From Fischerella sp. JS2 (lineage in GTDB: Bacteria > Cyanobacteriota > Cyanobacteriia > Cyanobacteriales > Nostocaceae): a stretch of DNA of 64,000 nt. Below the pieces are notes generated by a model, which was given only the letters and a program-made list of their open reading frames with translations, searched no databases and was not told where the DNA came from. Positions 11,590 through 35,567 of this stretch are shown here, one piece after another. The DNA lies in NCBI RefSeq assembly GCF_032393985.1, contig NZ_CP135918.1, positions 2,542,001 through 2,606,000 of the forward strand. The letters run 5' to 3'. The stretch's first letter is position 1. The number at the start of each line of letters is the position of its first letter. The translations under genes were made by a program, and so were the position numbers.

Positions 11590-11798
11590 TTATCTCGCTG
11601 CGCGAGGAAGGCAGAGGGTAGAGGGCAGGAGGCATCTATGTTGAGTTGTCGGTTGAGCAGCCCTATTGCCGTCCGAGCTTTTGGGTTTAAGACCCCCGCT
11701 AAAACGAAGTTTAGCGGATACGAATTGCTGGTGGGTATGAATCCCCCAGGAACATCGCTGCTTGTGCCCTCTGCCTCCGGCATAGCTGCCTTCTTCAA
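11590..11798 (-). repeat. ~208-bp dispersed repeat, intergenic copy (family 4)
   Basis: This stretch is nearly identical to 35258-35458, which lies inside the tpsB gene. Conserved features, read on the minus strand: a start GAAGAAGGCAGCTATG, an inner hairpin CGCTAAA/TTTAGCG, and an end CTCGCGCAGCGAG that is itself palindromic. This copy differs from the other mainly by a 7-base duplication in a purine-rich run near 11604-11620, giving 208 rather than 201 bases. It starts right at the stop codon of the PATAN-REC gene. Confidence 0.8.
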
Positions 11799-13000
11799 TG
11801 CCCCAGATATTTCTCAACAATTTGTAATAATTCTTCTGGCTGTGGAGGCTTACCTAAAAATTCAGTTGCACCTACTAACATAGCATGGGCCCGATCAATC
11901 GGGGTATTGCGCTCTGTCAGGAAAATAATTGGTGTATTCCTAAAAGTGGGAGTGTCGCGCAAAAATTTACAGATGCTATAACCATCAGCATTGGGCAAGA
12001 GCAAGTCTAACAAGATTAAATCAGGCTTGTGTTCGATAAGTTGAGAAAAGCCTCGCATCGGTTCCGGAATGCTTAACATTTGATATCCGGCGGGTATCAA
12101 GATTTTTCTTAAGGTGTAAGCTAATACTGGACTATCATCAATGCAAGCAATTAAAGATTGTTTTTCAACAGATTTTTGAATAGGTTCCTCAACAGGTTCC
12201 GGAGCAAATGTAATACGATTATTTTCTGATTGGGAGTTATTGACTGCAACTACTTGTTTGATAGTCGGTAATGGTAAATCTGGAATTTTTTGCAGTTCCA
12301 GCACACCTTTATCCACCCAAGGTATTAAGGAAACAGCCACCTCTGTCACAGATTTTTCCTGCTCTACAGCAATATCCCAAAGGGTGAAATTATTGTTGAA
12401 GTACTTTTTTTCTGAAACTGGGATGACTTGAGGATTTGCTGTTGGTGACAAAACTGGTGCTAAACAGGGGCTAAGATGATCTAAACCAGCAGCTTGCCAT
12501 TTTTTTTGTATGTTCGTTGCTTTTGTAAGAACTGAGAGTATTTCCCAGGAAGATAAGGCTATGAGCTGAGGTAAATGAAATATATCTTTTTGAGTGGGTG
12601 TCCAATCATTTTTCAGTTCTTTAGAGTTACTCAATTCAAAAAAACATTCTTGGACAATAGTACGAATTACTAACTTAGCTTGGATTGCACTCAATTGCCT
12701 ACGACTGATGGCTTGGGCGAGGAGTTGACATTCCCAAGGCTGATTTTCTGACAATACAGAAGACTCAACACTCCAGTTCCAATCGGGACAATGCTGCTTT
12801 AAGGCTCTGTTCCAGCGTCTGACAGGATGCATTCCACCTGTGGCATAGATCAACTTACCGTCGTTAAAGTGAAGATTCCAAACGACTGTATGGTTGTAGA
12901 AAATTAGTACTCCATTACTACTATGTTTACTCAGGTTGTCTAATTCTTCTGTCAGCCTTGTTAGTATCATTTGTGGCAATTTTGCTCTGCTCGCAATCAT
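11795..13000 (-). CDS. PATAN-domain response regulator (PatA-like)
   Basis: 401 residues. The N-terminal two thirds form a PATAN/DUF4388-type module: ILTRLTEELDNL, then GVLIFYNHTVVWNLHFNDGKLIYATGG split over residues 30-57. The C-terminus (about 278-401) is a receiver domain with the acidic pair in CIDDSP, phospho-acceptor Asp in LLDLLLP, switch Thr in FLTERN and Lys in FLGKPPQ. The architecture matches PatA (heterocyst pattern) and the CheY-like PixG/TaxP1 regulators of cyanobacteria. Those usually sit with cheY, cheW or mcp genes; here the gene stands alone, so neither heterocyst patterning nor phototaxis can be assigned. The stop codon is immediately followed by a 208-bp repeat. Confidence 0.85.
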   Translation of the reverse strand: MIASRAKLPQMILTRLTEELDNLSKHSSNGVLIFYNHTVVWNLHFNDGKLIYATGGMHPVRRWNRALKQHCPDWNWSVESSVLSENQPWECQLLAQAISRRQLSAIQAKLVIRTIVQECFFELSNSKELKNDWTPTQKDIFHLPQLIALSSWEILSVLTKATNIQKKWQAAGLDHLSPCLAPVLSPTANPQVIPVSEKKYFNNNFTLWDIAVEQEKSVTEVAVSLIPWVDKGVLELQKIPDLPLPTIKQVVAVNNSQSENNRITFAPEPVEEPIQKSVEKQSLIACIDDSPVLAYTLRKILIPAGYQMLSIPEPMRGFSQLIEHKPDLILLDLLLPNADGYSICKFLRDTPTFRNTPIIFLTERNTPIDRAHAMLVGATEFLGKPPQPEELLQIVEKYLGH

Positions 13001-17449: not shown

Positions 17450-17455
17450 TTAATT

Positions 17456-17525
17456 GTGTGTGAGGAGTAAGTTTAGAAAAAAAGCGCTTGGAGTGGGAAC
17501 ACGGTAACACTCCAAGCGCTTTTTA
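17456..17525 (+). ncRNA. Small RNA copy 1 of a tandem pair (Yfr2-like)
   Basis: About 70 bases, starting near TTGTGTGTGAGGAG, with an A-rich single strand, then a perfect 12-bp stem (GCGCTTGGAGTG paired with CACTCCAAGCGC, 17484-17519). The loop contains GGAACACGGTAA, and T's follow. The loop resembles the GGAAACA loop motif that I recall for the Yfr2 family of cyanobacterial small RNAs. A 17-bp-spaced promoter precedes it. The stem plus T-run also serves as its terminator. It lies 82 bases after purH, but having its own promoter argues against it being only the purH terminator. The Yfr2 assignment is inference. Confidence 0.6.
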
Positions 17526-17565
17526 ATTGGTAAATTATTGAAGAGAAAAATTTTTTCTAAAGTAC

Positions 17566-17598: not shown

Positions 17599-17672
17599 TT
17601 GTGTGTGAGGAGCAAGTGTAAAACAAAAAGCGCCTGGGGTGGAAACACGGCAACACTCCCAAGCGTTTTTTG
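17599..17672 (+). ncRNA. Small RNA copy 2 of a tandem pair (Yfr2-like)
   Basis: It begins with the same GTTGTGTGTGAGGAG as copy 1, then an A-rich stretch, a stem (17630-17665) and a T-run. The loop reads GGAAACACGGCAA, nearer to the GGAAACA motif than copy 1. The stem has compensating and bulged changes (GCCTGGGGTG against CACTCCCAAGCG), so structure is kept while sequence drifts. Start, loop and terminator are conserved between the copies, while the bases between them are not. Confidence 0.6.
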
Positions 17673-17816
17673 TTTTTTAAGTTTTTTGAATATTGATTCT
17701 TAATAATTCCAATCAACTAACAACTAAAATAATGCAAAACAGTAGCCCAATATTGATCCTTTTTGGACTACTGTTTGAGAATTAATTTTAACAAAATCAA
17801 AATTCTTGAATCCTAA

Positions 17817-33566: not shown

Positions 33567-35567
33567 TCAAAAGGGATTGGCAATAATGGAAAAGTACAAA
33601 CCGTTTTCCTGCCATGAATCCTTTTCCTCGGAACCAATTGAGATTAAAGGAATGCCCCAATCAAGGCGAGCGGTAAGATTATCTTGAAGTTGTAAGCGTA
33701 GACCTAATCCTACAGATAGCAGGGTATTGCTATCGAGTTCAACTTGAAAGTCGGATCTGCCAGAATCATTCCAACCATTGCCAAAATCCACAAAAGGAGC
33801 TATCTGCAAAAAGTTGTTGCGTCCTGAGAAGCGAACGACGGGTACTCGCACTTCCGCAGATAGAAAAATGCCGTTGTCTGTTAATAAAGCATCTTGACGA
33901 TAGCCCCGGACGGAATCTAGACCCCCAATACCAATTTGTTCAAAGGGAACGAGTGGTCTATCTGCTAGTTGTAGATCACCTCGTAGCAGCAACAAAGTGT
34001 CGCGTGCTAATAAGCGTACCCACTGGGCTTGTCCTCTCCAAGAGACAAAACGAGTATCAGGGAAGGTTTCGTTGATAGTGGCATCAAAAAGATCAAGTCC
34101 GACACTGAATTGAGAACGCATGGCAAATACTTGCTGACTATCACGAGAAACCCACTCTTGAAAAAAGCGTACAGCTGTTACCCGCGTTTTTCCTTCTGTG
34201 TCTGTACCTGTCCCAGGAAAAGGAATTTCCCCATCTAAAAAGGTAGCTTTGCTACGACGATGGCTTGCTGTTATACCTAAGGCAAATTCTTGAGTCGGTT
34301 TTTGTAGTAGAGGCTGACGCAGCGTTAGTTCGTAGTAACTGGAGTTGGACTGAATATCTAAGACATCAAAGGGTCTTTCTACAACAGTGTTGTCAGAAAA
34401 ACCGTAGCTAAGCGACAAAGTACCATTGCGGGGATTGAGGGGCAAAGTATAATTTATATCAAAGGCATTACTACCATCCGTATTGGCGTAAACGGCGCTA
34501 ATGCTATCACCCCATCCAGACAGATTAGCTTCGTTTACTTGTATTTGCCGACGAAAACTGCCGACAGCAGGCGATCGCCCATTGTCCAAAATCAACTGTA
34601 CGTTAAAACTATCGGCTTCCTTGACTTGTACTTCTAGTAAACTTTGTCCAGGGCGAGTTCCGGCTGATAGTTCTGCTGATAAGTTTGCAATTAAAGGATT
34701 GAGTTGCAATAATTGCAATGCTTCTAACAAGCGATCGCGGTTCAAGGGTGGTTTTGTGGCAATGGCAAGGCGACTTTGCAAATATTTAGGGTTAAGTCTG
34801 TGGGTACCTATTACTTTTATATCTTCTAGTCCCCCCTCAACTACCCTAATTTCCACTACACCATTCTGCAATTTTTGTGGTGGGATATAAGCTCCAGATG
34901 TAATGTAACCTTGATCTACATAAAATTGAGTAATTTTTGAACGAAGCTGAAATAGTTCTGCAAAGGTAATTGGACGATTAGCAAAAGGTTCAGTAATTTT
35001 GTCAAAGTCCTCAGGGCTAAAAACAGAACTGCCCGTGACTTTAAATTTTTTCACAATGATAGTTTGAGGAACTTCACCGCTTGGGGTTGGTTTTGGAGTT
35101 GGAGTTGTTGTATCCCGGGGTTGCAGTAATTCTTCTGGAGGCGGTAGAGGTTGTGGTGGTGACTGTTCTGGTAAGGGCTGAGTTGAGGGTGGTTTACCAG
35201 GTTCAGGTCTAATGTTTGGAACTTGAGCAGTTTTGTAAGCTGGTATTTGCGTTGTTTTATCTCGCTGCGCGAGGAAGGCAGAGGGCAGGAGGCATCTATG
35301 TTGAGTTGTCGGTTGAGCAGCCCTATTGCCGTCCGAGCTTTTGGGTTTAAGACCCCCGCTAAAACGAAGTTTAGCGGATACGAATTGCTGGTGGGTATGA
35401 ATCCCCCAGGAACATCGCTGCTTGTGCCCTCTGCCTCCAGCATAGCTGCCTTCTTCATTTACTTGCGCTTTCAACGGCTTGATTGTTGTTGCACTAAAAA
35501 TTACTACTATGCTCAACCAACACCAGTATTTATACATGTTTGATTGAAATTGAATTTTACTGGGCAT
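33567..35567 (-). CDS. TpsB/ShlB-type outer-membrane transporter with a 67-residue repeat insertion
   Basis: Two-partner secretion or Omp85-like transporter. From ATG 35567: a signal peptide (core WCWLSIVVIFSATT, cut near LKAQ), then 67 residues encoded by a 201-bp dispersed repeat (35258-35458), then a P/Q-rich linker (PGKPPSTQPLPEQSPPQP). A POTRA domain follows (FKVTGSSVFSPEDF to RVVEGGLEDIKV), then a 16-strand-type barrel ending in Phe (FSIIANPF). A TTG at 35624 and an ATG at 35537 are alternative starts. The insertion keeps frame and falls in the flexible region after the signal peptide, so the protein may still work. No TpsA substrate is adjacent. In Nostocales such proteins export adhesins or heterocyst-envelope-related cargo; which applies is unknown. 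Confidence 0.85.
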   Translation of the reverse strand: MPSKIQFQSNMYKYWCWLSIVVIFSATTIKPLKAQVNEEGSYAGGRGHKQRCSWGIHTHQQFVSAKLRFSGGLKPKSSDGNRAAQPTTQHRCLLPSAFLAQRDKTTQIPAYKTAQVPNIRPEPGKPPSTQPLPEQSPPQPLPPPEELLQPRDTTTPTPKPTPSGEVPQTIIVKKFKVTGSSVFSPEDFDKITEPFANRPITFAELFQLRSKITQFYVDQGYITSGAYIPPQKLQNGVVEIRVVEGGLEDIKVIGTHRLNPKYLQSRLAIATKPPLNRDRLLEALQLLQLNPLIANLSAELSAGTRPGQSLLEVQVKEADSFNVQLILDNGRSPAVGSFRRQIQVNEANLSGWGDSISAVYANTDGSNAFDINYTLPLNPRNGTLSLSYGFSDNTVVERPFDVLDIQSNSSYYELTLRQPLLQKPTQEFALGITASHRRSKATFLDGEIPFPGTGTDTEGKTRVTAVRFFQEWVSRDSQQVFAMRSQFSVGLDLFDATINETFPDTRFVSWRGQAQWVRLLARDTLLLLRGDLQLADRPLVPFEQIGIGGLDSVRGYRQDALLTDNGIFLSAEVRVPVVRFSGRNNFLQIAPFVDFGNGWNDSGRSDFQVELDSNTLLSVGLGLRLQLQDNLTARLDWGIPLISIGSEEKDSWQENGLYFSIIANPF
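35258..35458 (-). repeat. 201-bp dispersed repeat inserted in frame in tpsB (family 4)
   Basis: Nearly identical to 11590-11798. This copy lacks one 7-base purine unit present there, which makes its length 201, a multiple of three, without stop codons in the tpsB frame. The encoded stretch begins EEGSYAGGRGHKQRCSWG and ends FLAQRDK. An inner hairpin (CGCTAAA/TTTAGCG) and a palindromic end (CTCGCTGCGCGAG) are present. Confidence 0.8.

Follow-up and report, generated by a model that had tools for sequence, protein, structure and literature searches.

An in-frame insertion in a cyanobacterial tpsB gene belongs to a family of folded, probably IS200/IS605-like mobile elements

Insertion sequences of the IS200/IS605 type and their non-autonomous derivatives, of which the PATEs of Haloquadratum are an example, insert 3' of a fixed tetranucleotide without target duplication, and have a TCAA-like right end and folded ends. 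The repeat described here is alike in target, in lack of duplication and in right end, and its ends are predicted to fold in the tpsB copy; it differs in that a left hairpin is not universal and in that the loci read revealed no transposase bearing its ends. To our knowledge, typical IS200/IS605 derivatives are devoid of the long paired heptamer arms and of the conserved covarying core that are present in it. Nezha and other cyanobacterial MITEs are recognised by inverted repeats at their termini and by duplication of the target.

Other small repeats come close to this element, as they are described in the available parts of the sources cited. REP sequences carry a GTAG or CGTC tag and measure 20-40 bp; REPs and REPINs are folded, occur in many copies, sometimes lie inside ORFs and give stop codons to flanking ORFs (PMC3733652). 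The cyanobacterial element resembles these RAYT-mobilised sequences in folding, in copy number and in its ORF and stop-codon cases (such as the TGA of the sister copy, see below), and differs from them by having TTAT instead of the tag and by its length of 160-281 bp (n=64 elements whose two ends could be set by pattern). Rickettsia palindromic elements, of which 44 integrations in genes are given for R. conorii, are also short, palindromic and found in frame inside protein genes (PMC10969869). Compared by description and not by sequence, they are in frame unusually often whereas the cyanobacterial copies rarely are, and the hosts differ; both the ends (TTAT / TTCAA) and the host range point to a kind of element other than that of Rickettsia. 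STRR sequences are tandem 7-bp units that form hairpins between genes of heterocystous cyanobacteria, and their function is called unknown there (PMC2670836); they share the heptamer hairpins, but here such units make up both arms of a single mobile element with defined borders. Nezha, named among small mobile elements (PMC10969869, PMC3733652), and other cyanobacterial MITEs are likewise small, non-coding and mobile, and are set apart by description, not by sequence.

The tpsB segment and its sister copy

The DNA analysed (the window, 64,000 nucleotides) lies within the single contig of the 7.02-Mb genome of Fischerella sp. JS2 (G000). A first-pass annotation had proposed that a dispersed repeat of 201 bp, encoding 67 residues, is inserted in frame and without a stop in tpsB at 35258-35458. 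The repeat was indeed found at that place and, reading the letters of the minus-strand frame from the ATG at 35567 to 33567, we met no stop across it; the size had to be reduced to 198 bp and 66 codons, the longer figure having included flank bases (Table 1). In the predicted TpsB, the 66 extra residues sit between the signal-peptide region and the POTRA domain.

We then looked at the orthologues, a check that the annotation had suggested. The tpsB product of G002 (95% protein identity) reads AQV-T-KTTQ where that of G000 reads AQVN-(66 residues)-KTTQ, the G006 orthologue (85%) reads AQV-I-KTTQ, and the G003 orthologue (73%) is likewise without the segment. In G001 (94%) the contig begins inside the gene and the insertion place is outside coverage. 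Since the closest orthologues covering the place (95% and 85%) have no such segment, it is an insertion in G000. At the site itself the relatives have TTAG and TTAA, and TTAT was read in G000 only. The tpsB of G019 (63%) contains a long unrelated sequence in the same region, so the length of the stretch between signal peptide and POTRA domain varies. The converse reading, according to which the segment is native to tpsB and gave rise to the other copies as gene fragments, has next to no probability: it is refuted by the orthologues without the segment and by the empty sites, and the other copies keep the same borders in surroundings that are unrelated and belong to a family present in 69/120 related genomes. 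By comparison with its orthologues, the tpsB segment is a recent mobile-element insertion and not native protein.

Compared with the consensus of nine near-identical copies, the tpsB copy has three substitutions in 198 bp and lacks one 7-bp unit. One of the three is found elsewhere only in the other window copy, 23.7 kb away, and the two copies therefore look like closest sisters. Between G000 and G002, tpsB has a dS of 0.228 and a dN/dS of 0.11; set against this dS, three substitutions make the insertion young relative to the split of these two genomes. On the G000 branch we counted 37 synonymous and 6 nonsynonymous changes (parsimony, 597 codons), which shows that tpsB was under purifying selection on this branch, but most of the branch time predates the insertion.

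The length difference between the two window copies is one 7-bp unit, as first annotated, and because this unit is missing the length of the tpsB copy is a multiple of three. The sister copy had been given as 208 bp at 11590-11798 and had been expected to break the frame. The locus is right and the element itself has 205 bp, after the TTAT (Table 1); it is not simply out of frame, since it lies at the end of a response-regulator gene and supplies its stop codon. Indeed, the response-regulator frame (11795-13000) ends with ...KYLGH-TGA, the TGA being within the copy. As read from the letters, the same place holds a TAA stop in G001 and G002, and in G006 the stop comes one codon earlier.

Table 1. 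Features of the tpsB locus and of the sister copy (nucleotide positions are those of the window).
Feature	Position	Strand	Remarks
tpsB, Omp85/TpsB outer-membrane transporter of two-partner secretion	33567..35567	-	666 aa, ATG 35567
TpsB domains	POTRA_2 175-248, ShlB 310-628		residue numbering of a 669-residue query starting three codons upstream of the ATG
Insertion site TTAT in tpsB	35257..35260	+	5' flank, kept, not duplicated
Element copy in tpsB, 198 bp	35261..35458	+	empty sites in relatives; 66 codons
Extra residues of TpsB (EEGSY...AQRD), 66 residues	residues 38-103	-	minus-strand reading of the element copy 35261..35458
Left-end hairpin, tpsB copy, CTCGC-TGC-GCGAG	35261..35273	+	predicted fold
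5' arm, paired part AGGCAGAGGGCA, tpsB copy	35276..35287	+	one 7-bp unit fewer than the sister copy
Conserved core, tpsB copy, GGGTTTAAGACCCCC and two hairpins	35343..35418	+	model R1, 70.5 bits
3' arm TGCCCTCTGCCT, tpsB copy	35425..35436	+	pairs with the 5' arm
Right-end hairpin, tpsB copy, CAGC-ATA-GCTG	35438..35448	+	predicted fold
Right end CTTCTTCAT, tpsB copy	35450..35458	+	ends TTCAT; the other 13 copies TTCAA
TTAT before the sister copy	11590..11593	+	
Sister copy, 205 bp	11594..11798	+	right end provides the TGA (11795-11797) of the response-regulator gene 11795-13000

Borders, fold and spread of the family

The whole-genome search for further copies that the annotation had called for returned, with the element as query in G000, nine near-identical full copies (93-100% identity), five related copies (E 1.0e-7 to 2.1e-13) and, to the arms, six short matches of 30-39 bases. 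The nine full copies are 198, 205, 197, 206, 212, 206, 205, 205 and 204 bp long, which illustrates how 7-bp units and small indels shift the reading frame. The flanks of the copies are unrelated to one another and the borders are identical: TTAT precedes 13/14 of the full and related copies (TTGT before L012), TTCAA forms the right end of 13/14 (all except the tpsB copy), and the element ends, C...CTTCTTCAA, are fixed. The sequence CTGCCTTCTTCAA occurs 34 times in the genome, compared with 0 for its reversed control.

We joined the flanks of 12 further copies and ran them against four relatives, the tpsB flanks being added afterwards. In-register empty sites were obtained for six copies (L001, L005, L006, L007, L009 and L014, in one to three relatives each), and at these six clear junctions the element lies directly 3' of TTAT and starts with C, without duplication of the target or loss of a base. 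At L002 and L003 the junctions agreed with this, though less clearly, the alignment of L013 contained gaps and L004 was too diverged; no spanning match was listed for L010 and L011, and L012 was left out of the comparison. A gap at L008 in the comparison with G002 was considered as a second insertion and rejected: about 154 bp between two TTATs, beside the element, are missing in G000 (compare with L123, G002:C125), as if by a deletion from TTAT to TTAT. A different palindromic repeat, GAACACAGATGCACACCGATGAACACAGAT, is present in the left flank of L003; it too is dispersed, and G001 and G002 have dozens of matches to it.

In the predicted fold, the element is laid out as the two ends, the arms of heptamer units pairing together, the GGGTTTAAGACCCCC core and two covarying hairpins. 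In the alignment of 23 distinct cores 91.2% of the cells pair, compared with 42-60% when the structure is slid. In 11 of the 27 core pairs both sides have changed (mean of shuffles 7.7, 5/500 shuffles as high) and 55 cells are altered on both sides, compared with 17.9 in shuffles (0/500 as high), numbers to be read knowing that related sequences can exceed shuffles without structure; a further measure, that of pair types, gave no excess over shuffles (128/500). An automatic consensus fold of the full-length alignment had 19 pairs, only 4 of which showed change on both sides, because the heptamer arms align badly; aligning the core with a named structure worked where full-length consensus folding gave little. 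The folding z-scores had a mean of -6.9 over 35 elements, the weakest being -2.4. The arms define subfamilies (GGCAGAA type, GAATTCAGGAGTCAG type and others) and still pair in the folds shown. A left hairpin is predicted in the tpsB copy and none in the GAATTCAGGAGTCAG-arm subfamily; in the fold of L247, of the GAATTC-arm subfamily, none was seen. Four copies of G075 (L165, L175, L181 and L186) have the same extra block, roughly 115 bp long, ahead of the core. L137 (G000:C1:3554081) is an element of roughly 60 bp with both ends and arms and no core, possibly a minimal form.

A fold of about 200 nt, in which the hairpins covary and a core motif is conserved, would also suit spread through RNA, either as a structured transcript copied into DNA or as a guide-type RNA whose protein is encoded elsewhere. 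We regard this route as improbable: the wobble pairs do not clearly mark the element strand (20 GT/TG vs 13 AC/CA), this strand folds better than its complement in only 21/35 elements, and Rfam 15, searched with the window copies and 15 loci with or near copies, gave chance-level matches only and none at gathering score. Elsewhere in the window, at 17454-17526 and 17599-17674 (+), two Cyano-1 RNAs in tandem were above the Rfam gathering score.

Model R1 was built from the 23 distinct cores, some of them taken from relatives that were later searched. It gave 33 matches in G000 at E below 0.001, and the 69 related genomes with matches include some that contributed cores to it. The left end TTATCTGCCCTTCGGGCAAGGCAG, with at most one mismatch, was present in 14/145 family genomes, and exact matches to TTATCWGCCCTTCGGGCAAGGCAG came from 25 stretches of named genomes; every named genome with the left end is cyanobacterial, the names being those of Nostocales except for one of Pleurocapsales. 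In relatives, CTTCAA follows within 170 bp at 61 of the 89 distinct copies, compared with 5 in control windows, and TTAT[CA], a weak pattern alone that is also present in 30/89 control windows, was seen at 60; both ends could be set by simple pattern in 46/89, a few of them clearly mis-set. The element was undescribed in the literature searched by topic and by core letters, and may be in print among the Anabaena and Nostoc repeats. Papers by Elhai in 2008 and by Wolk in 2010 reportedly deal with such repeats and MITEs.

Mode of movement and search for a transposase

The element inserts precisely 3' of TTAT without duplication and has fixed ends, pairing arms and core hairpins with compensatory changes. 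The TTAT target, the TTCAA end, the lack of duplication and the folded ends fit transposition of the IS200/IS605 type. In the available part of a survey of 39 IS605-type elements, TTAT at the left end (10) and TCAA (16) and TTCA (8) at the right end are among the more frequent motifs (PMC9956272). We infer that the element would move as a single strand, cut and joined in trans by a Y1 (HUH) transposase in the IS200/IS605 way. The tpsB segment is probably a recent copy of a non-autonomous, folded mobile element of heterocyst-forming cyanobacteria that is moved in this manner.

We looked for a Y1 transposase with the same ends in 42 Y1 loci, 12 of them matches in the own genome (two being halves of one broken gene) and 30 among the matches listed for ten relatives. 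No such transposase was detected by pattern (two arm types and the core) in these loci, each of which spans 1.5 kb either side, and the far end can lie outside. Similarly, when the element loci were searched by homology with four TnpA and two TnpB sequences of G000, no transposase was revealed between element ends; the matches were a TnpB remnant by a core-less heptamer array (L083), a TnpA-like fragment of 52 aa (L121) and, in L192, a TnpB that lies about 3.9 kb away from the copy. From the letters, the own IS605 group of seven copies appears to use TTAC. Because no Y1 transposase with these ends was found, we file the element as working like IS200/IS605 and not as a member of that group. At L083 (G034:C1:3833969), the heptamer array adjoins the TnpB remnant and an apparent IS605 left end. 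Another locus, L061 (G000:C1:5337144-5337563), contains a Y1 transposase frame with a different short in-frame repeat, peptide SGSQSLYLGRPQDRAA, and L051 has a similar peptide in another frame.

The arms are imperfect inverted repeats, which gives the element the look of an inverted-repeat MITE, its ends TTATCAAGAAAGGCAG and CTGCCTTCTTCAA are nearly complementary, and no Y1 partner appeared among the loci read. Such a MITE could be moved without target duplication by a transposase that is not of the Y1 type, for example a DDE or serine enzyme. We consider this unlikely, since the target-site duplication that is a feature of DDE-type MITEs is absent at the six clear junctions, and since the ends are asymmetric (TTAT/C vs TTCAA/) and match frequent IS605 cleavage motifs, as given in the available part of PMC9956272.

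In-frame copies and chance

The landing in tpsB would have been survivable because the copy has 198 bp and its opposite strand is stop-free in that phase; in the predicted protein, the extra 66 residues fall in the variable stretch between the signal peptide and the POTRA domain. We scanned 144 matches (138 distinct by sequence), namely all 33 of G000 and 111 from relatives. The latter came from the better-scoring matches, repeated places and partial antisense matches being removed by eye, and the scan was made as 90 matches and 59 rows, minus 5 rows at stretch edges. A match was taken as in frame when a frame ran through it and stayed open for 30 codons or more past each of the assumed element limits. 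Frames spanned 5/144 matches and four were counted as real genes (tpsB, NRPS, PKS and LysR-like), all of them read on the strand opposite to the element; L078, whose element is spanned by a frame of 176 aa, was rejected as a gene and left out of the four. A frame of at least 150 aa ran across 112/218 of the flanking control windows.

Three of the four cases, tpsB, NRPS and PKS, are among the 33 matches of G000. The NRPS copy is an element of 192 bp in a frame of 1425 aa with a complete AMP-binding match, and the corresponding frames of G001 and G002 have 1376 aa and no element. At the junction, the flanks of G001 and G002 align only with nearby gaps and read GTCAT; the alignments show that these relatives lack the element, though they do not give an empty site that is exact to the letter. 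In the PKS gene, the copy (L239) is worn at its ends and lies between the acyltransferase and KR domains, where the matched parts are separated by 24 residues in G019 and by 53 in G000; it is a probable in-frame case. The fourth is in G023, in a gene called LysR-like from a reading of its sequence.

If about half of the insertions hit genes, these four survivors are near the chance-frame expectation. Indeed, the length is a multiple of three in 14/64 of the elements whose two ends were set by pattern, stop-free frames are as rare on one strand as on the other (22/192 on each), and 15/384 frame-by-length cases (3.9%) would pass by chance. The four cases are about what chance frame and the loss of nearly all other genic insertions would leave. 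That in-frame insertion is instead a positively selected habit, as proposed for Rickettsia palindromic elements, is very doubtful: the 3/33 of G000 and the common orientation of the four cases would favour it, but the overall 4/144 and the frequencies just given for stop-free frames and chance passes speak against it. The likeness to these elements that had been noted at the outset holds for the outcome, an element in frame inside a gene, and not for an unusually frequent in-frame habit, 4/144 being set against a chance of 3.9%.

Gain or loss of a 7-bp arm unit could switch a gene off or on. More speculatively, and with considerable doubt, the heptamer repeats long known from heterocystous cyanobacteria may, at least in part, be the arms of one widespread, active superfamily with TTAT/C...CTTCTTCAA ends and a GGGTTTAAGACCCCC core of two hairpins, mobilised by an enzyme that recognises the folded strand and working, through the number of arm units, as a frame switch after landing in genes such as tpsB or those of NRPSs. 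Altogether, an oddity of tpsB has become a defined and testable family of mobile elements, with its ends, target, fold, copy list and empty sites, and with a covariation-supported structure that matched no Rfam family. The element offers an origin for some of the heptamer repeats in these genomes, and tpsB and the NRPS adenylation domain are natural cases in which a mobile element has turned into predicted protein sequence.
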